From positions 1 through 41,263 of the forward strand of contig JAFGOW010000101.1 in NCBI GenBank assembly GCA_016926265.1: a DNA stretch of 41,263 nt. Direction: 5' to 3'. A model generated the notes under the pieces. The model had not been told where the DNA came from. It ran no database searches and worked only from the letters and a program-made list of their open reading frames with translations. This DNA is from Deltaproteobacteria bacterium. Its GTDB lineage: Bacteria; Desulfobacterota; Desulfuromonadia; Desulfuromonadales; JAAYDE01. A program made the position numbers and the translations under genes. Position 1 is the first letter of the stretch, and the number at the start of each line of letters is the position of its first letter. This document shows positions 33,396 to 41,263 of this stretch, in pieces.

Positions 33396-33634
33396 GGAGT
33401 AAACCCATAAGCGTGCCTCGGACGTCTCCGCGGCCGGGAAAATGGGGGGAGAAAAAGAGCGCCTTGGTCCGATTTTTCCGGACCGGGGCGGCAGGAGACA
33501 TAAAATGTCACCCAAAGGCAACGGCTCTGTTGTCGAAGCTAAAAAAATGGTGTAAAGTCCATCGAAGCAGCCAATCAACGGGGTCAATCACCGGGGCGGG
33601 AACCGATACCGTTTCCAGGGAACAGAGGGGGGAG
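33396..33634. other. Divergent gap between fusA and the third activator gene
   Basis: No gene is supported; the frame that extends the activator upstream to 33413 lacks a credible start or domain. A small hairpin GGTCCG with CGGACC (33464-33481) is visible. No sigma-54 promoter with both elements was found for the activator. Confidence 0.5.
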
Positions 33635-35071
33635 ATGTCCTTGCGCACGATTTTGCTGGTGGATGGAAACCGTCATGAAAGAGAGCGGGTTGTGGTGCCG
33701 CTCCGGAAAGAGATCGACTGCGTTGTTCTGGAAGCGGAAAACCCCGAGATTGCCTTGGAAATTCTCGACAAGGAGCGGATTTCCCTGCTTTTGACGGATC
33801 TTTTCCTGCCTCAGAAGGAGGGCTTGGAGCTGATCCGGAAGGTTCAGAAGGTGGACCCCGAGGTGGTTTCCATGGCGGTTGTTCCTCTCAACAACCGGGA
33901 AATGGAAGTGGAGGCTCTGAAACTGGGGGCCTTTTTCTATATCCATACCCCCTACGATTTTTCCGAGGCCGTGATCGGCTCTTCACGGGCCTTGAGTTTT
34001 CATGATCTGCAGCTTCACGGTGAAACGCGGGGGGCTCAAATCCGCAAGCGGGACGGCTTTTTCGGCATCATCGGCCAATCCCCGGCCATGGAAAAACTTT
34101 ACCGGGTCGTGGAACGGGTGGCGGCGGACGGCGAATCGACGGTTCTGCTGTACGGGGAAAGCGGCACCGGCAAGGAACTTTTTGCCCGCGCCATTCATGG
34201 TTTGAGCCCCCGCAAGGGGAAAAACCTGGTTCCCGTCAACTGTGCCGCCATCCCCGATGAGTTGCTGGAGAGCGAACTGTTCGGCTATGTCAAGGGGGCC
34301 TTCACCGGCGCGGTCCAATCAAAGATCGGCCGCATTCAGTACGCCGACGGAGGAACGCTGTTCCTGGATGAAATCGGGGACATGAAACCGAATCTGCAGG
34401 CCAAGCTGCTGCGGGTGCTGCAGGAGCGGGAATTCGAACCGGTGGGCGCCGTCAAGTCGGTCCCCGTCGATGTCCGGGTGGTGGCGGCCACCCACCGGGA
34501 TCTGGAAAAGCTGGTGGAGGATGGGAAGTTCCGCGAGGATCTCTATTACCGCCTCAACGTGGTTCCCCTCACCATCCCGCCGTTGCGGGACCGGGATGAT
34601 GACATCCCCGAACTGGTGGATCAGTTTGTCCGGTGCTTCAGCCGCAACCGCAACCTGGGCGAAACCTGCTTTGAGCCGGAGGTCATCCAATCGTTGCGAG
34701 GATACCGCTGGCCGGGAAATGTGCGGGAACTGAAGAACCTGGTTCAGAGGATGGTGGTTCTGCATGGCGGTGAATCGATCACCCTCGATCTGCTTCCCGA
34801 GAAATACGGCGTTCCGGCCGGGGGCGGCAATGGCCGCGAACTGGAGGAAACGATCGTGGTGGCGCCGCCCCCCCCGAGGGCGGAGGTTTTGGGGCAAGGT
34901 CCCATCGATTTCAATTCCCTGGTGAGTGAGTTCGAGGACCGCCTGATTTTACAGGCCCTGACGCGGACCGGAGGCAATAAGAAGGAGGCCGCGGAACTTC
35001 TGAATCTGAAAAGGACCACTTTGCTGGAAAAGATCAAGAAGAAGGGGATCGACGAGCGCAAGGAAAGCTAA
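33635..35071 (+). CDS. Sigma-54-dependent activator with degenerate receiver (FleQ/FlrA-like)
   Basis: A 478-residue enhancer-binding protein; ATG 33635 follows GGGGGGAG. The receiver-like domain keeps a candidate phosphoacceptor D55 (LLLTDLFLP). It has D10-G11 where an acidic pair is expected, no Thr/Ser at the usual switch position (SMAVVPLNN) and Thr in place of the conserved lysine (YIHTPYDF), so phosphorylation is unlikely. The AAA+ domain is intact: [39 protein letters not shown]. The C-terminal [30 protein letters not shown] resembles FleQ/FlrA flagellar master regulators. It is not paired with a kinase gene. A role in flagellar or motility control fits the nearby chemotaxis genes but is inference. 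Confidence 0.88.
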
Positions 35072-35188: not shown

Positions 35189-36316
35189 TCAGGAAGCCTT
35201 CCGGAACATGTGCTTTTCGGCTTTTTCCTGGATTTCCGCGGTGCTGGCGGGGGTTACCAGAATGTCGCAACTGCCGTATTTGACCGCCTGCAGAACATGG
35301 GCGCGGGTCCATTTGGGGCCGGCGGCAATCAATGGCACCGGATTTGAAGCCGCCGATTTGACCTTGATGGCGGCGGCGAAGCCCTGGTCATCGACCTCCT
35401 TCATGATGAGAAAGATCCCCCGGACCAACCGGGCCTGAAAAATTTCCTTGAATTCTTCTTTGAATCCCTTCAACACGCAGCGATGCCCCCGTGACTCCAG
35501 CGATTCGGCAAAGACCTGAGCTTCTTCCTGAGCATCGGACAGCAGCAGAATAACCTCTTCTTCATCGGCAGCGGCAGCCGGAAGAGCGCTTTCAGGCGCT
35601 TCCGGACCTTCCCCCTTGGCCTCCGGCGGCGGCGCGGTGGGGGCTTCGTCCGGTCCCCGGACTTCGGGGCCGGCGGCGGCTTTCCCGGCAGCGGATGTTT
35701 TCTGGGCGGGCGCTTTCTTCTCTTCGGGTTTGGGAGCGGCCTCGGCGCTTTCGATCCCCAGCAGGGGAGTCGGCAGAATGATGAAAAGGGAACTCAGTTT
35801 CTTGCCGTCCTTTTCCACCGAGAAGGAGGCCATGAACATCTGCTGATCGGGGAAAGGCTGATCGGAGGGGATGTCGATCTTGTTTTTGGCCAGCGTCTCG
35901 AGCCCCGCTTTCGAGAATCGCAGGGCTCCTTCGTACTGGTCGCCGAAGCTTTGGGTCAATGCCCCGGCGATGATGTTGGCGATCTCGCCGAAAGCGTCGT
36001 TTTCCTCGGTGCCAAAGACCTCCTTGCTGATGCGCTGTTCGAGTTCGGTGGCCGGAAGCATGACCAGGGCGCCGGCGAACAGGATGGCATCCTTGATGTC
36101 GGTGAAAAGATAGCACTCCCCCTTGTTGTCCCCCGAGACGGAGAAGCGGGTCATCACCGATTTTTTGGCGAACCTGGAACAGCACTCTTTCTTGGAGATC
36201 AGATTGGTCTCCAGCAGGGTGAGGTGAAGCTGGGCATCGATGAGGAGGCCTACCTCCTCCTCGATCTTTTCCGCCGCCGTTTCAAATACGGAAGTGAGGT
36301 TTTCCAGCTTTTCCAT
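35189..36316 (-). CDS. CheX-like phosphatase domain fused to a pseudo-receiver
   Basis: A 375-residue protein. The N-terminal 185 residues are CheC/CheX/FliN-like, with the phosphatase-type helix ENDAFGEIANIIAGALTQSF containing E-x-x-N. A 55-residue Ala/Pro/Glu/Lys linker follows. The C-terminal 120 residues (VILLLSDAQEEAQVF to ILVTPASTAEIQEKAE) look like a receiver fold. The phosphoacceptor aspartate position is hydrophobic (GIFLIMKE), and the conserved lysine is replaced in ILVTP, so it should not be phosphorylated. It is the last gene of the chemotaxis set, separated from cheX by about 190 bases and a terminator, so it may be transcribed separately. The start has a poor ribosome site. The gap upstream (36385-36450) is unusually AT-rich. 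Confidence 0.82.
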   Translation of the reverse strand: MEKLENLTSVFETAAEKIEEEVGLLIDAQLHLTLLETNLISKKECCSRFAKKSVMTRFSVSGDNKGECYLFTDIKDAILFAGALVMLPATELEQRISKEVFGTEENDAFGEIANIIAGALTQSFGDQYEGALRFSKAGLETLAKNKIDIPSDQPFPDQQMFMASFSVEKDGKKLSSLFIILPTPLLGIESAEAAPKPEEKKAPAQKTSAAGKAAAGPEVRGPDEAPTAPPPEAKGEGPEAPESALPAAAADEEEVILLLSDAQEEAQVFAESLESRGHRCVLKGFKEEFKEIFQARLVRGIFLIMKEVDDQGFAAAIKVKSAASNPVPLIAAGPKWTRAHVLQAVKYGSCDILVTPASTAEIQEKAEKHMFRKAS

Positions 36317-36507: not shown

Positions 36508-36978
36508 TCATCCGCCGTTCTGTTTTTCGAAATGGAGCTGGATGAGCAACTGGCCCGCTTCGGTCTCGAAGGGAACGATCAGATGGGTTCCCTGGGAGCG
36601 GTTGATGTCGAGGGTATACTTCTCGCCGCTGACCGAGGAAGGGACCGAAAGCTGGATATCCTTGCCGCTGCTGGAGAGCATCGCCTTGATGCTGCCGGCC
36701 AGCATATTGGCCAGTTCTCCGAAGGCGTCGAGGACATCGTCGTTGATTTCGTCCACATCCGTCATCAGGAACTGGGACGTGATTTTCTTGGCCAGGGGGT
36801 AGGGGGCGTGAACCGCCACGATCCCCTTGTAGAGCCCCCCCATCCCGACCATCCCCGAAACCGTTTCCGAAAACGATTCAGGGGGGGTGCCGATCTCGGC
36901 CTGGGGAGCAATCTCCATGGCCAGCATGCTTTGAAACACTTCCTGCGTGGCGTCGGCCAACTGTTGATAGATTTCCAC
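36508..36978 (-). CDS. cheX: Chemotaxis protein CheX
   Basis: A 156-residue CheY-P phosphatase family protein, the usual CheX length. The catalytic helix is DDVLDAFGELANMLAGSIKAML with E and N spaced as E-x-x-N; GLYKGIVAVHAPYPLAKKIT and the last strand GQLLIQLHFEKQ complete the fold. The start codon is GTG with AGGAG and GAGG just upstream. It lies 13 bases downstream of the cheY at 36992, suggesting that this CheY is its substrate. It is the last gene before a terminator. Confidence 0.85.
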   Translation of the reverse strand: MEIYQQLADATQEVFQSMLAMEIAPQAEIGTPPESFSETVSGMVGMGGLYKGIVAVHAPYPLAKKITSQFLMTDVDEINDDVLDAFGELANMLAGSIKAMLSSSGKDIQLSVPSSVSGEKYTLDINRSQGTHLIVPFETEAGQLLIQLHFEKQNGG

Positions 36979-36991
36979 GTCCTCGCTCCTG

Positions 36992-37360
36992 TCAGATGCC
37001 GCCGAGCGTATTCTGAATCTGCTCTGGGGTAAAGGGTTTTTTGATGCTCCCCTTGGCGCCGAGATTGATGGCTTCGTTGATGACGTCGGCTGCCGATTCG
37101 GTGGTGATCATGAACACGGGGATGTTCTTGATCTTATCGTTGGCCTTTTTTTGACGCAGGAATTCGATCCCGTCCATGTTGGGCATGTTGATGTCGCTCA
37201 GGATCACGTCCGGTTTTTCGCTTTCCAGGATTTTCAGGGCCTCCGCGCCGTCCCCCGCTTCCAGGACCTTGTCGTATTCAAGCCCTGCCTGCCGCAGCGA
37301 GCGGCCAATGATTTTTCTCATGGTATTGGAGTCGTCGATGATCAGAATCTGCTTGCCCAT
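36992..37360 (-). CDS. cheY: CheY-like single-domain response regulator (1)
   Basis: A 122-residue receiver. The frame is open further upstream, but the ATG at 37360 follows GGAGAG and starts exactly at the receiver (MGKQILIIDDSNTMRKIIGRSLR). The acidic pair DD, phosphoacceptor in VILSDINMPNMDG, Thr in FMITTES and Lys in SIKKPFTP are intact. The protein has no output domain. Neighbouring cheX genes on each side suggest a CheY/CheX pair. Whether it acts on a flagellar switch or on pili is not shown. Confidence 0.88.
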   Translation of the reverse strand: MGKQILIIDDSNTMRKIIGRSLRQAGLEYDKVLEAGDGAEALKILESEKPDVILSDINMPNMDGIEFLRQKKANDKIKNIPVFMITTESAADVINEAINLGAKGSIKKPFTPEQIQNTLGGI

Positions 37361-37416: not shown

Positions 37417-37866
37417 TCAGGGGCGATACTCGTCTCCCGCATAGGCCAAATGGAAAAACTGGTCCTGAGATTGAAAATACCAGATTTTTTCCGGAGCGGA
37501 GCGCGCCTGCTCCTCGCGGCGGGGAAGCCCCAGCAGGAAGGTCTGTTCTTCCGAGAGCATTTCTTTCAGGGTCTGCCCGGCGATGGTGTTCAGGAGCTCG
37601 AACAGGGTGTCCTGGAATACCTGGTCGTTGAGCTCTTCCGCCGGAATGGCGTAGACGGTTTCCGCGATGAGGATCAGAAGCGCCTTGGGGAGGCAGAGGC
37701 GGAAATCTCCGTGGAAGGGCTCCAGTACCGCCAGAGAAACCTCCCGGGGATCCGCCAGAAGCTTCTGCTTGTCGTTGGGCTGCTGGCTGAAGACCTCCAT
37801 GAAGGCCATTCCTTCGAAGGTCTCCACCACGGCTTTGCGAATGGCTTTTTCCATGGTATCCGGCAT
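37417..37866 (-). CDS. CheX-family protein (second copy)
   Basis: A 149-residue protein beginning DTMEKAIRKAVVETFEGMAFMEV, a typical CheX/FliN-like N-terminal helix. The second helix QDTLFELLNTIAGQTLKEML carries E-x-x-N, the phosphatase pair of CheC/CheX. The segment EQTFLLGLPRREE and the end QDQFFHLAYAGDE are strands. It differs enough from the CheX at 36508 to be a distinct paralogue. Its ATG is only two bases from the stop of the preceding cheY (37869), so the pair is coupled. The phosphatase activity is inferred from the motif. Confidence 0.78.
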   Translation of the reverse strand: MPDTMEKAIRKAVVETFEGMAFMEVFSQQPNDKQKLLADPREVSLAVLEPFHGDFRLCLPKALLILIAETVYAIPAEELNDQVFQDTLFELLNTIAGQTLKEMLSEEQTFLLGLPRREEQARSAPEKIWYFQSQDQFFHLAYAGDEYRP

Positions 37867-37868
37867 GG

Positions 37869-38252
37869 TCAGATTTCCTCCGTTGACAGCACGGCCTCAA
37901 TGACAGGCGACAAGGTGGCGGGGGAGATCGGTTTGTTCAGGACCGCGGCAGCCCCCTGGGCGACCAGTTCCTTTTCCTTGGCGGGATTGCCGGCGCTGGT
38001 GATGACGACGACCGGGATATCGGTCAACTTGGGGCTGGCCTTGACCCGTTGCAGCAGACTCTGCCCGTCCATGCGGGGCATGTTGAGATCCGTGAGCAGC
38101 AGATCGAAATTCCCTTTTTTCACCTGCTCCAGGGCGTCGGCTCCATCGACCGCCTCCGAGATGGTGACATCTTCGAGGCCGAGGATGTCGAGGCAGCGGC
38201 GGATGAAGAGTCTGGCGGTCTGAGAGTCGTCGGCGATCAAAATGTGGCGCAT
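37869..38252 (-). CDS. cheY: CheY-like single-domain response regulator (2)
   Basis: A 127-residue receiver with DD in LIADDSQTARLFIRR, phosphoacceptor in LLLTDLNMPRMDG, Thr/Ser in VVITSAGNP and Lys in LNKPISPATL. All residues for phosphotransfer are present. It is preceded by AGGAGAATTGACC. It overlaps nothing but has three bases between it and the HDOD gene and two before the second CheX, so it belongs to the same transcript. The two CheY copies are clearly different in sequence, not a recent duplication. Confidence 0.88.
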   Translation of the reverse strand: MRHILIADDSQTARLFIRRCLDILGLEDVTISEAVDGADALEQVKKGNFDLLLTDLNMPRMDGQSLLQRVKASPKLTDIPVVVITSAGNPAKEKELVAQGAAAVLNKPISPATLSPVIEAVLSTEEI

Positions 38253-38255
38253 TGG

Positions 38256-39128
38256 TCAATTCTCCTGTGAATTGTCCAGAGAGGTCAGAGCGGGCCGGAA
38301 CTGGGTTTCCGTGTCGGCGATGATTTTGGTCAGCTCCACGGGGGAGATGACATAGTAGTCTTCATAGGCTCCGTCCAGATGGTACTGGAGGGCATCGCTG
38401 CCGGTGGCATGGCCGCTCATCATGGCCAGGATATCCCCCAGGTGAACGGCATAAACCAGCGGTTTGTAGCATTCCAGGGCCTTCGAGGGCTCATGGTGAT
38501 AGCGGATGACCTCCTGAATTGCCTCCGGGAGCTTCCAGTGCTTGGCCAGTTCGAAGCCGAGTTCCGCGTGGTGGTGGCCGGAAAACTGTACTTCGGCGTT
38601 GAGGTAATCGGAAGCCTCTCCGGAATCGATGACCTTTACCGCCTTTTCGGCCGTGCCTTCCAGATGGCTGGAGATCACGAATTTGCCGATGTCGTGCAGT
38701 AGGCCGGCGGTGAAGGCCAGCTCTTTTTCGAGCTCCTCCTTGGCGTATTTGGCCACCTCGCGGGAGGCAAAGGCGGTGAAGAGATCGTGCCGCCAGAGGT
38801 CGCCGGGATAGCTTTCATAGCCCGGCAGGCCCTTCTGGAAAACCTCACCGGCACTCTCAGCAATGACCATACCAACGATCATCCTTTCCCCCAAAAAAGA
38901 GATCGCCCGGTCGATGGAATTGATCGGCTGCAGCAGGTTGAAGGCCGCGGAGTTGACGATCCGCAGCGTCTTGGCGGTGAGCGCCGCGTCGAATTTGACC
39001 AGCTGGATGATGTCGTTCAGGCTGTGGTCCGGTTTCGAATTGATTTCCAGCAGCCGGCTGGCATTGGGCGAAAGGACCGCGATTTTCGCGATTTCCTGAT
39101 GCAGGGGGTGATCTGTTTTTTCTTTCAT
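38256..39128 (-). CDS. HDOD domain protein
   Basis: A 290-residue protein of the HDOD family, an HD-related output domain found in signalling proteins. Visible are IAVLSPNASRLLEINSKPDHSLNDIIQLVKFDAALTAKT in the N-terminal part, the family segment RIVNSAAFNLLQPINSIDRAISFLG, the HD-like motif GLLHDIGKFV and ELAKHWKLPEAIQEVIRYHHEP. Unlike many HDOD proteins it has no receiver or other domain. HDOD proteins usually lack confirmed enzymatic activity; roles in motility and stress signalling are known in some proteobacteria. It sits between cheD and cheY in the operon, so a role in the chemotaxis pathway is likely but undefined. Confidence 0.88.
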   Translation of the reverse strand: MKEKTDHPLHQEIAKIAVLSPNASRLLEINSKPDHSLNDIIQLVKFDAALTAKTLRIVNSAAFNLLQPINSIDRAISFLGERMIVGMVIAESAGEVFQKGLPGYESYPGDLWRHDLFTAFASREVAKYAKEELEKELAFTAGLLHDIGKFVISSHLEGTAEKAVKVIDSGEASDYLNAEVQFSGHHHAELGFELAKHWKLPEAIQEVIRYHHEPSKALECYKPLVYAVHLGDILAMMSGHATGSDALQYHLDGAYEDYYVISPVELTKIIADTETQFRPALTSLDNSQEN

Positions 39129-39137
39129 GGCGCCACC

Positions 39138-39626
39138 TTACAATGTCCAAGTGCCCCGCGCGGGGGAGAAGATGCGGACCTCGCCGGTGCCGACATGGAT
39201 CGAGACGGTGCGGCTGATGGTGCCGCCGACCTCTTCGGCGACGGCGCCGAGCCCCTGGGCCCACAGCAATTTTTTGATTGCGATGAGATTGCGTTTGCCG
39301 ATGTTGAAGATTTCGTTGTTGTCCATGATGGAGGCTCCCCCTATGAGCTTGATCTTCAACCCTTTGCCCTTTTTATCGCAGCCGATCCGGGCCATGGCGC
39401 CGAACAGCAGGGGAAGGCCGGAATCGGCGAAAAAACCGGGCCGTTCCTTGGCGCGGGTGGGGTTGACCTTCATTTCCGGCAGGGCGATATGAATCATTCC
39501 TGCCGCATGAAGGGCCGGGTTGAAGAGAACCACGGCCACGCAGGAGCCGAGGGCAAAGGTCTTGATGGTGGCGTTGGGATCGTTGGAAACTCCGAAATCC
39601 CCGATCCCGAGGACGATATCACTCAT
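39138..39626 (-). CDS. cheD: Chemoreceptor glutamine deamidase CheD
   Basis: A 162-residue enzyme that deamidates specific glutamines of methyl-accepting chemotaxis proteins. The catalytic C29 is in FALGSCVAVVL, H46 in AGMIHIALP, and the thr/ser-containing VGGTISRTVSI segment is near the C-terminus, with KIKLIGGASIM and IGKRNLIAIKKLL in between. Its start overlaps the cheB stop by four bases. In B. subtilis CheD partners with CheC; here no CheC is present, but CheX paralogues are nearby. Confidence 0.93.
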   Translation of the reverse strand: MSDIVLGIGDFGVSNDPNATIKTFALGSCVAVVLFNPALHAAGMIHIALPEMKVNPTRAKERPGFFADSGLPLLFGAMARIGCDKKGKGLKIKLIGGASIMDNNEIFNIGKRNLIAIKKLLWAQGLGAVAEEVGGTISRTVSIHVGTGEVRIFSPARGTWTL

Positions 39627-40684
39627 TTGCCGAGCTCCGTGAGGAGTTGGAAGGTTACATTGGCAATCTGATCAAGCGGGACCAGGCGTTCGGCCCCCCC
39701 CTTCTCGTAGGCGACTTTGGGCATCCCGAAGACCACGGAACTCTCTTCGTCCTGGGCGATGTTGCGGGCGCCAGCCTTGCGCATCTCCAGCATCCCGTTG
39801 GCACCGTCCCCCCCCATTCCGGTCAGCATGATGCCGACGGCGTTGGGGCCCACCTCCCTGGCCACCGATTCCATCATGACATCGACGGAGGGGCAATGGC
39901 CGTTGACCTTTTCCCCTTCCTGGCAGAGGACCTGGTAGGTGCCGCCGCTCCGTTTCACCCGCAGGTGTTTGCCCCCCGGCGCCACCAGAATCAGCCCCTG
40001 GCGGACCCGGTCGCCCGTTTCGGCTTCCTTGACCTCCATGGCGCAGAGCTGGTTGAGGCGTTCGGCGAACATGCGGGTGAAGCCCGACGGCATGTGCTGG
40101 ACGATGACCACCCCCGGCATGTCGGCGGGGTAGAGGGTGATGACCTTCTTGATCGCTTCGGTGCCGCCGGTGGAGGCGCCGATGGCGATCACCTTGTCGG
40201 TGGAGTTGGCGAGGAACTCCCGCTTGGCGGCCGGGATCTCTTTTTTGATGGTTTCCCGGTCTTTTTTCCAGCGCGAGACGTTGGCCCGCGAGGCGATTTT
40301 GACTTTTTCGCACAGGGCCAGGATCATGGTCGAAAGGCTTTGGGCGACGTTGGAGGTCGGTTTGGTCACGAAATCGACGGCGCCGGCATCCAGGGCGTCG
40401 AGGGTGATCTGCTTTCCCTTCTGGGTCAGGGAGCTGACCATGACCACCGGCAGCGGATACTGGGGCATCAGCCGGCGCAGGAACTCGATGCCGTCCATCT
40501 TCGGCATTTCCACGTCGAGGGTCAGCACGTCCGGTTTCAGTTGCAGGATCTTGTCCCTGGCGATATAGGGATCGGCCGCGGAGCCGACCACCTCGATGGC
40601 CGGATCCATGTTCAGTCCCTGGGTCAGGATCTGCCGGACCAGCGCCGAATCGTCGATGACCAGGACGCGGATTTTATTCGTCAT
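39623..40684 (-). CDS. cheB: Protein-glutamate methylesterase CheB
   Basis: A 353-residue protein. The receiver has D11-D12, phosphoacceptor D57 in VLTLDVEMPKMDG and the lysine in FVTKPTSN. The linker leads to the methylesterase domain with the catalytic serine in IGASTGGTEAI, histidine in VIVQHMPSGFT and aspartate in LTGMGGDGANG. It removes methyl groups from receptor glutamates and can deamidate glutamines. It overlaps cheR upstream and cheD downstream by four bases each. Length is normal for CheB. Confidence 0.95.
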   Translation of the reverse strand: MTNKIRVLVIDDSALVRQILTQGLNMDPAIEVVGSAADPYIARDKILQLKPDVLTLDVEMPKMDGIEFLRRLMPQYPLPVVMVSSLTQKGKQITLDALDAGAVDFVTKPTSNVAQSLSTMILALCEKVKIASRANVSRWKKDRETIKKEIPAAKREFLANSTDKVIAIGASTGGTEAIKKVITLYPADMPGVVIVQHMPSGFTRMFAERLNQLCAMEVKEAETGDRVRQGLILVAPGGKHLRVKRSGGTYQVLCQEGEKVNGHCPSVDVMMESVAREVGPNAVGIMLTGMGGDGANGMLEMRKAGARNIAQDEESSVVFGMPKVAYEKGGAERLVPLDQIANVTFQLLTELGK

Positions 40685-41263
40685 GCGGCCTCGCTTTTTT
40701 GGTAGATGGCGGGCTTGATGTACTGGTAGAGACCCCCTTTGCGGCCCAGGGTCTCCGAGTGACCGATGAAGAGGAAACCCTCGGGTTCCGTCAAACCGTG
40801 AAATTTTTCCACCACCCGTTTCTTGTCCTGTTCGTCGAAATAGATCATCACGTTGCGGCAGAAAATGATATGGAAAGGTTTTTTGAAGGGGTAGACCGCG
40901 TTCATCAAATTGAAACGGCGGAAGGTGATCTCGGCGCGCAACCGGTCGTTCATCCGCCAGGAGCCGTCGGCAAGCCGGGTGACATATCTTTTGCGGAGAT
41001 GGTCCGGCAGCGAGGCGATTCTCTCCTCAGAGTAAATACCATTTCGGGCCACGGTCAAGACCCGGTCTGAAATATCGGTGGCCAGAAGGCCGGCATTCCA
41101 ACTGGAGTAGTCTTTGCCCAGGCACTCCATCATCAGCATCATCAACATGTAGGCTTCTTCGCCGCTGGAGCAGCCGGCGCACCAGACGCGGAGATCCTTT
41201 TCCCCCCGCGAGCGGAGCCGCTCGACCGTCTCCGGCAGGGCGCGGTCGAGGAAAAAATCGAAA
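40681..41263 (-). CDS. cheR: Chemotaxis protein methyltransferase CheR (partial, N-terminus outside window)
   Basis: The C-terminal 193 or so residues are visible; the frame runs off the right edge and no start is in the window, so the ATG at 41148 is internal. The SAM-binding motif RVWCAGCSSGEEAYML lies just inside the edge, followed by ATDISDRVLTVARNGIYSEE, NLMNAVYPFKKPFHIIFCRNVMIYFDE and the end GFLFIGHSETLG, all standard for CheR. It methylates glutamates of chemoreceptors in opposition to CheB. It is the first visible gene of the operon; cheA, cheW or receptors may lie beyond the edge. Confidence 0.93.
   Translation of the reverse strand, partial: FDFFLDRALPETVERLRSRGEKDLRVWCAGCSSGEEAYMLMMLMMECLGKDYSSWNAGLLATDISDRVLTVARNGIYSEERIASLPDHLRKRYVTRLADGSWRMNDRLRAEITFRRFNLMNAVYPFKKPFHIIFCRNVMIYFDEQDKKRVVEKFHGLTEPEGFLFIGHSETLGRKGGLYQYIKPAIYQKSEAA

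Follow-up and report, generated by a model that had tools for sequence, protein, structure and literature searches.

The fusion gene and the chemotaxis genes around it

The window, that is, the whole stretch of 41,263 nucleotides that was analysed, belongs to contig C186 of a draft genome of 258 contigs (84.65% complete), and its minus strand carries, at 35189–36316, a gene that joins a CheX-type phosphatase domain to a pseudoreceiver. The open reading frame reported there in the preliminary description is confirmed; it encodes 375 amino acids, with an ATG start and the stop codon included in the coordinates, and a full-length orthologue (L032) aligns from Met1. Profile comparisons place a CheC/CheX/FliY-type domain at the N-terminus (residues 1–195; 35732–36316, minus strand), with a single predicted phosphatase active site, the ExxN motif E111-I112-A113-N114 (35975–35986, minus strand). 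Alignment to receivers places the pseudoreceiver at the C-terminus (residues 252–375; 35192–35563, minus strand), and the joint alignment of the tails described below marks a W336-T337-R338 signature in its β4-α4 loop (35303–35311, minus strand). The span between the two profile ends is a linker rich in Ala, Pro and Glu (residues 194–252; 35561–35737, minus strand), with 17 Ala, 12 Pro and 9 Glu among its 59 residues; a low-complexity linker had been described here before, correctly as to its character, but its length had been put at 55. The linker has a median length of 52.5 residues in the window's order (range 30–106, n = 40), 42 in the sister group (25–52, n = 19) and 46.5 in families f39 and f122 (36–65, n = 6).

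The fusion gene comes last in a row of che genes on the minus strand: CheR (40681–41262, cut by the contig end), CheB (39623–40684), CheD (39138–39626), an HDOD-domain protein (38256–39128; 5.6e-46), a CheY-type receiver (37869–38252; Pfam scan), a divergent CheX-type gene (37417–37866; Pfam CheX, 5.1e-6), another single-domain CheY-type receiver with intact catalytic residues (36992–37357; Pfam scan and alignment) and, directly upstream of the fusion gene, a canonical CheX gene (36508–36978; Pfam CheX, 1.3e-21). The HDOD gene stands between cheD and cheY in many other loci of the order as well, and the alpha che cluster of a Geobacter survey includes an HD-domain protein (PMC2577667). Convergent with the fusion gene is an NtrC-type sigma-54 activator (33413–35071, plus strand; Pfam scan), whose true start is probably further in. 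Most loci of the order, and all six loci of families f39 and f122, have an activator of this type past the 3′ terminus of the fusion gene, usually in convergent orientation, though L042, L043, L054, L063, L064 and L065 have it on the same strand; it is perhaps a flagellar regulator. No flagellar neighbour can be seen in the window, because the contig ends within cheR.

A single-sequence search of the PDB with the window protein gave no match at E ≤ 1, its comparison alone with Pfam and NCBIfam gave weak matches only, and a single-protein search of the genome contig collection returned one named relative; a tblastn search of the plasmid collection with the tail alone was negative at E ≤ 1e-5. 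The family was sampled in the order through 40 neighbourhoods from 40 genomes, with 41 distinct proteins (that of the window, L032 and 39 of the 40); L033, which lies on the same contig as L032, was dropped from the family alignments, and L119, a stretch without the target, was left out of the sister-group counts.

The phosphatase domain and its tandem forms

The N-terminal domain of the window protein matches Pfam CheX (PF13690) weakly when taken alone (E 0.0012, under the curated cut-off), and 54 of the 80 CheX copies of the family match the same model at E ≤ 0.01. A profile built from the 80 copies aligns with the canonical CheX proteins of the operons over 77 columns (hhalign probability 95, E 2e-8). 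When this profile was compared with the PDB, the best match was 4hyn (E 3.8e-5), deposited as a CheC/FliN fusion protein, which we take to be FliY, and the values for CheC and CheX were 6.6e-4 and 0.094. Only five columns are invariant across the 80 copies (G66, P88, E111, N114 and G118), and two of them are the defining residues of ExxN. When the set is widened to 92 copies, the Glu of the motif is present in all and the Asn in 90. The earlier recognition of an ExxN-bearing CheX-like domain thus holds, and by both homology and motif the domain can be assigned to the CheX/CheC/FliY phosphatase superfamily. Its chemistry is very probably intact, because ExxN is retained in nearly all copies.

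Both copies that lack the Asn belong to one distant protein, L157 (L157:6653-8560), a tandem orthologue from outside the class in which the pseudoreceiver is retained. In L157 the gene comes directly after cheA, and the cheY and cheX genes that intervene in neighbouring family members are absent. The survival of this protein despite the loss of ExxN in both copies would suit a non-catalytic, structural part of the motor or of the array, in which the CheX fold served as scaffold, and FliY illustrates that CheC-like domains can be parts of the motor. With the motif otherwise complete and both exceptions confined to L157, such a role is very unlikely for the family.

The number of CheX domains varies within the order: of 41 proteins, 19 are single-CheX forms, 21 are tandem forms and the last, L070, is truncated at its N-terminus, with no CheX copy counted for it. 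A quick tree was built from 47 of the 92 copies. In it the second copies cluster with first copies from the same lineage, and the labels must change seven times, with starred branches enforcing three or more of these changes. A single ancient duplication was rejected, given that forcing the second copies together lowers the log-likelihood by 119 (p-AU 6.6e-6). Repeated duplication and gene conversion both fit the tree. Since CheX acts as a homodimer (PMC8235581), the two domains of many orthologues can naturally be read as a CheX dimer made covalent.

The receiver-derived tail and its conserved face

The C-terminal domain of the window protein, taken alone, does not match Response_reg, and neither is it among the 27 of 41 tails that do so at E ≤ 0.1 (best 2.4e-6). 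Pfam iREC (PF22563), the model for inactive receivers, is matched by one of the 41 tails (E 0.0014) and not by that of the window. The profile of the 41 tails, on the other hand, matches many solved receivers of the PDB nearly end to end (Helicobacter pylori CheY, 3h1f, E 1.1e-5), although its top row is a partial match to a Rossmann 2x3 fold protein (E 9.7e-6). Its match to the CheY proteins of the operons is weaker (hhalign probability 72, E 3.4e-5), over 120 columns.

The 41 tails of the order were aligned jointly with 19 tails of the sister group and 41 operon CheYs. At the column of the phosphoacceptor (D57 of E. coli CheY), Asp is found in 0/41 tails of the order, 0/19 of the sister group and 41/41 CheYs; in the window tail the place is taken by I304 (MAFFT) or M305 (HMMER). 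The switch Thr/Ser87 is likewise present in all 41 CheYs and in no tail, being replaced by Gly in 40 and Ala in one of the order (G333 in the window) and by Ala in all 19 of the sister group. Lys109, also present in 41/41 CheYs, is absent from the order (0/41; T355 in the window) and kept in 17/19 of the sister group. The acid pair D12/D13 shows a similar division: in the order the first place is mostly Ser (17) or Ala (15) and the second Glu (13) or Asp (12) among 41 tails, with S-D in the window, while most of the 19 sister-group tails keep it (Glu 14 and Asp 2, then Asp 17 and Glu 2). The switch Tyr is lost too, its Tyr106 column holding Ile (39) or Val (2) in the order and Ile in 19/19 of the sister group. 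The operon CheYs, including that at 36992–37357, are themselves mostly without this Tyr (Val 15, Ser 9, Ala 7, Thr 4 and Asn 3 of 41).

Judged against the receiver family (PF00072), the tail therefore presents homology over the full domain, and the alignment indicates that in the order the phosphoacceptor, the acid pair, Thr/Ser87 and Lys109 are gone. The view that this is a receiver-like domain without phosphoacceptor or conserved lysine is upheld by these results: the profile matches point to a receiver fold, and no acceptor is retained on alignment. Chance can be excluded as the source of the pattern, because it is the same in tails that are 33–62% identical to that of the window. The acceptor was probably lost before the order and the sister group separated, or else in both; decay of the remaining pocket would have come later, in the window's order. 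The sister-group tail may still bind a metal or a ligand, because its acid pair and Lys are kept. One genus of family f24 (g65; G163–G181) matches the tail clearly more weakly than most genera of the sister group do (8.9e-22 to 3.3e-28) and forms a diverged subfamily.

The loss of the site does not mean the loss of constraint, and the term "dead receiver" used in the preliminary description, while right about phosphorylation, undersells a domain that is strongly constrained on another face. Mean pairwise identity was measured per structural element, within the tails of the order and within the operon CheYs. It is low in the tails in two loops of the phosphorylation pocket (β1-α1, 0.17 vs 0.74; β3-α3, 0.45 vs 0.73), comparable in β4 (0.67 vs 0.72) and α5 (0.38 vs 0.32), and higher in α3 (0.50 vs 0.38), the β4-α4 loop (0.77 vs 0.41), α4 (0.71 vs 0.43) and β5 (0.73 vs 0.49). 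Between order and sister group, tail identity is 0.14 and 0.11 in the β1-α1 and β3-α3 loops, as against 0.54 in the β4-α4 loop and 0.63 in α4, and the identity of tails to CheYs in the same four elements is 0.14, 0.10, 0.03 and 0.21. The conserved stretch follows the pattern W-T-R...V..A..YG..DI; its Trp and Thr are present in 41/41 tails of the order and 19/19 of the sister group, the Arg in 58 of these 60, and the Thr is absent from the operon CheYs. On these alignments, the constraint on the tail appears to have moved from the phosphorylation pocket to the β4-α4 loop and α4, unlike that on the operon CheYs, and the conserved surface appears to be family-wide and not that of CheY.

The W-T-R residues presumably correspond to positions 90–92 in E. 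coli CheY numbering, on the face with which CheY contacts FliM and CheA-P2. The position of the conserved residues at the surface is derived from the alignment to CheY, given that the AlphaFold models made for the full protein and for the tail, from the sequences of the window and L032 alone, are unusable (mean pLDDT 37.0 and 40.4, pTM 0.29 and 0.36). The conservation of α4 may be partly structural, with α3 and β4 well kept too, and the β4-α4 loop also borders the old pocket, which limits the argument from the surface. Still, a conserved surface that is not that of CheY is to be expected where a domain binds a partner of its own, not where it mimics the substrate.

This bears directly on two mechanisms offered in the preliminary description, both of which are weakened because they rest on the resemblance of the tail to the substrate. 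The first is autoinhibition: imitating the CheY substrate, the tail would fold back in cis and cover the ExxN helix until a signal released it. CheX-type phosphatases work by inserting a helix into the pocket of CheY, the tail descends from the substrate fold and the tether is long enough. However, the CheY features round the active site are lost, the pocket loops being neither conserved between order and sister group nor CheY-like; the linker varies from 30 to 106 residues within the order, and in the tandem forms two active sites would depend on a single tail. Autoinhibition is thus unlikely. In the second mechanism, a CheY-mimicking tail would act as a titration sink or competitor, drawing off CheX dimers or CheY partners. 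The receiver ancestry of the tail speaks for it, but the identity of the tail to CheY falls to 0.03 and 0.21 in precisely the β4-α4 loop and α4, and the tail is fused to a phosphatase domain with an intact motif, so that a sink is most improbable. Both of these readings fit less well than docking does.

A different possibility is that the pseudoreceiver binds a small molecule and thereby tunes the phosphatase. Pseudoreceivers can bind c-di-GMP, as in ShkA of Caulobacter (PMC7010744), and the conserved Trp, Thr and Arg could make a site; the conservation, however, runs on along α4, as that of an interface would, and ligand sensing is quite improbable.

Distribution and flagellar linkage

In the window's order the fusion protein is matched in 85 of 136 genomes at E ≤ 1e-3; one of these, G135, is matched at 5e-4 only and was left out of the count of target genomes. 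Across the class, the tail profile finds exactly one match in each of 195/277 genomes at E ≤ 1e-18, a threshold used in place of 1e-6, at which the tally of 215/277 probably includes ordinary receivers. A further protein of the window's own genome (L002, G000:C31:1731-2222), which matches residues 205–368 at 2.6e-5, is probably a receiver of the ordinary kind. The survey of the lineage that had been proposed earlier thus finds the architecture to be general and not peculiar to one genome. In a sample of 395 genomes of the phylum, six further members, all tandem, belong to families f39 and f122, outside the class (E 1e-35 to 2e-29); everything at about 1e-13 or weaker was taken en bloc for ordinary receivers, on the strength of the gap between 2e-29 and 1e-13.

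The presence of the protein follows that of FliG. FliG_C is found above the Pfam cut-off in 80 of the 136 genomes of the order, of which 78 hold both genes and two FliG only, while six hold the fusion gene only and 50 neither. In the class, 186 genomes have both, nine the tail only, eight FliG only and 74 neither (17 discordant), and four of the eight FliG-only genomes (G037, G071, G078 and G110) hold part of the fusion gene. Fisher's test gives p values of 7.5e-28 and 2.3e-47 for order and class, shared ancestry being ignored. The two genes also lie close together: in the order they share a contig in 37 genomes and are within 20 kb of each other in 35, the exceptions being G080 (78 kb) and G090 (1.1 Mb), the only same-contig genomes of family f9. 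The genome of the window has fliG on another contig.

The arrangement of these loci differs between the two groups. In the order, the operon's cheA and a TPR gene, the latter followed by flgB, flgC, fliE, fliF and fliG, are transcribed divergently in 6/6 loci (L159–L164, none of them from f9; Pfam names taken from L159). In the sister group, flgB, flgC and fliE lie downstream of the fusion gene on the same strand in 19/19 loci, with fliF in 18 stretches and fliG in 16, the others ending before the gene is reached, and a CheY-CheX pair is directly upstream in 18/19 (not L104). The TPR gene stands between the fusion gene and flgB in 17 of these 19 loci (not L111 or L120), so that in both groups it separates the che genes from flgB; its product (800 residues in L159:4854-7253, 747 in L107:3949-6189; TPR matches from weak to clear) perhaps acts as a scaffold of the flagellum, presumably comparable to PflA.

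The place of the fusion gene in the cheA operon of the order, and directly beside cheA in the distant locus L157, recalls the third mechanism of the preliminary description, docking on the kinase: the protein would be an array-bound phosphatase held specifically by CheA, as CheZ is by CheA-short. Docking as such fits best of the three mechanisms, but CheA is a doubtful dock. A P2/CheY-binding domain was recognised (E ≤ 0.01) in 0/3 CheA proteins scanned, two from the order and one from outside the class; the β4-α4 loop of the tail is not CheY-like, and in the sister group the fusion gene sits with basal-body genes. Docking on CheA in particular is therefore fairly unlikely. In L159 and L163, two Hpt stretches were recognised in the CheA of the flagellar cluster and no P2 domain; the CheA from outside the class has one Hpt stretch.

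Proposed role and known systems

The reading that best accommodates these data, with a probability of roughly 0.55, is that of a flagellar CheY-P phosphatase with a phosphorylation-independent docking tail of the FrzS kind. The N-terminal domain would hydrolyse CheY-P by means of its ExxN helix, as the conserved residues suggest, and the receiver-derived domain would serve as a binding module that needs no phosphorylation. Through its β4-α4 loop and α4, this module would dock the phosphatase, on its flexible tether, to a dedicated flagellar or chemosensory partner, probably at the motor, the pole or the array, and would so limit where CheY-P is destroyed. The domain homologies, the retention of ExxN, the loss of the phosphorylation site, the shift of constraint and the flagellar linkage and co-occurrence are the observations behind this reading; L157, which has lost the Asn of ExxN in both CheX copies and kept the tail, and the distances between fusion gene and fliG in family f9 (78 kb and 1.1 Mb) count against it. 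A broader proposal can be made only tentatively: a flagellar protein, present class-wide in single copy, whose receiver, stripped of phosphorylation, has been re-used as a dedicated W-T-R docking domain, so that CheY-P is hydrolysed at one subcellular site, and whose CheX has been duplicated, repeatedly and independently, into a covalent pair.

If this is true, most flagellated members of the class, probably including relatives of Geobacter and Desulfuromonas, carry an unstudied core signalling protein that matters for the question of the cellular site at which the chemotaxis signal ends. The family would also be a natural test case for the way in which phosphorylation is lost from a receiver while an interface is kept or gained, and the sister group, with acid pair and Lys, could be compared with the order, which has neither, for the steps of the loss. 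CheZ on CheA-short and FliY in the switch are two ways in which a CheY-P phosphatase is localised, and docking through a pseudoreceiver would be a third.

With the CheY-P phosphatases CheX and CheC (PF13690/PF04509) the N-terminal domain shares its sequence family and ExxN; unlike them, it is of about 190 residues, has one ExxN, is divergent and often tandem, and carries a receiver-derived tail. FliY resembles the fusion protein in that a phosphatase domain of the same superfamily is joined to a second module in a flagellar gene context, but there the second module is of the FliN type and here it is a pseudoreceiver. No FliN/SpoA domain was found in the window protein at E ≤ 1 (Pfam), where CheX and an unrelated weak match were the only results.

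A CheX-pseudoreceiver architecture is not described in the accessible parts of the open literature (PMC2577667, PMC8396549, PMC10782961, PMC8789113, PMC8235581, PMC2829493, PMC3543383, PMC5847659, PMC1183210, PMC1974792, PMC12189002, PMC9321776), and an earlier mention is possible. In a comparison of five Desulfuromonas genomes, cheX genes (three) were counted only in the two flagellated strains, with a che cluster (AOP6_0888-0878) that contains cheX and lies beside flagellar genes (PMC8235581). This cluster is very probably of the same operon type as the one described here; the chemotaxis section of that account mentions neither a receiver-like tail nor tandem CheX (PMC8235581). The CheA-CheC/CheX fusions of Leptospirae also join CheC/CheX to a che module, but to the kinase and not to a pseudoreceiver (PMC10782961).

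For the tail, the closest parallels come from other motility proteins. FrzS of Myxococcus xanthus has a receiver-like domain without acceptor, in which Thr87 is replaced by Gly and the output face (the α4-β5-α5 side) is needed for polar localisation (PMC1974792). The tail appears to share with it the acceptor-less receiver homology and the conserved output side; FrzS, which is not a phosphatase, keeps the switch Tyr and Lys (PMC1974792), while the fusion tail has Ile or Val at the Tyr and, in the order, no Lys. FimX, in turn, joins an enzyme-type module to a localising pseudoreceiver, as proposed here, and depends on the latter for its place at the pole, with the differences that the enzyme is a phosphodiesterase, the pseudoreceiver is N-terminal and the system is that of type IV pili (PMC1974792).
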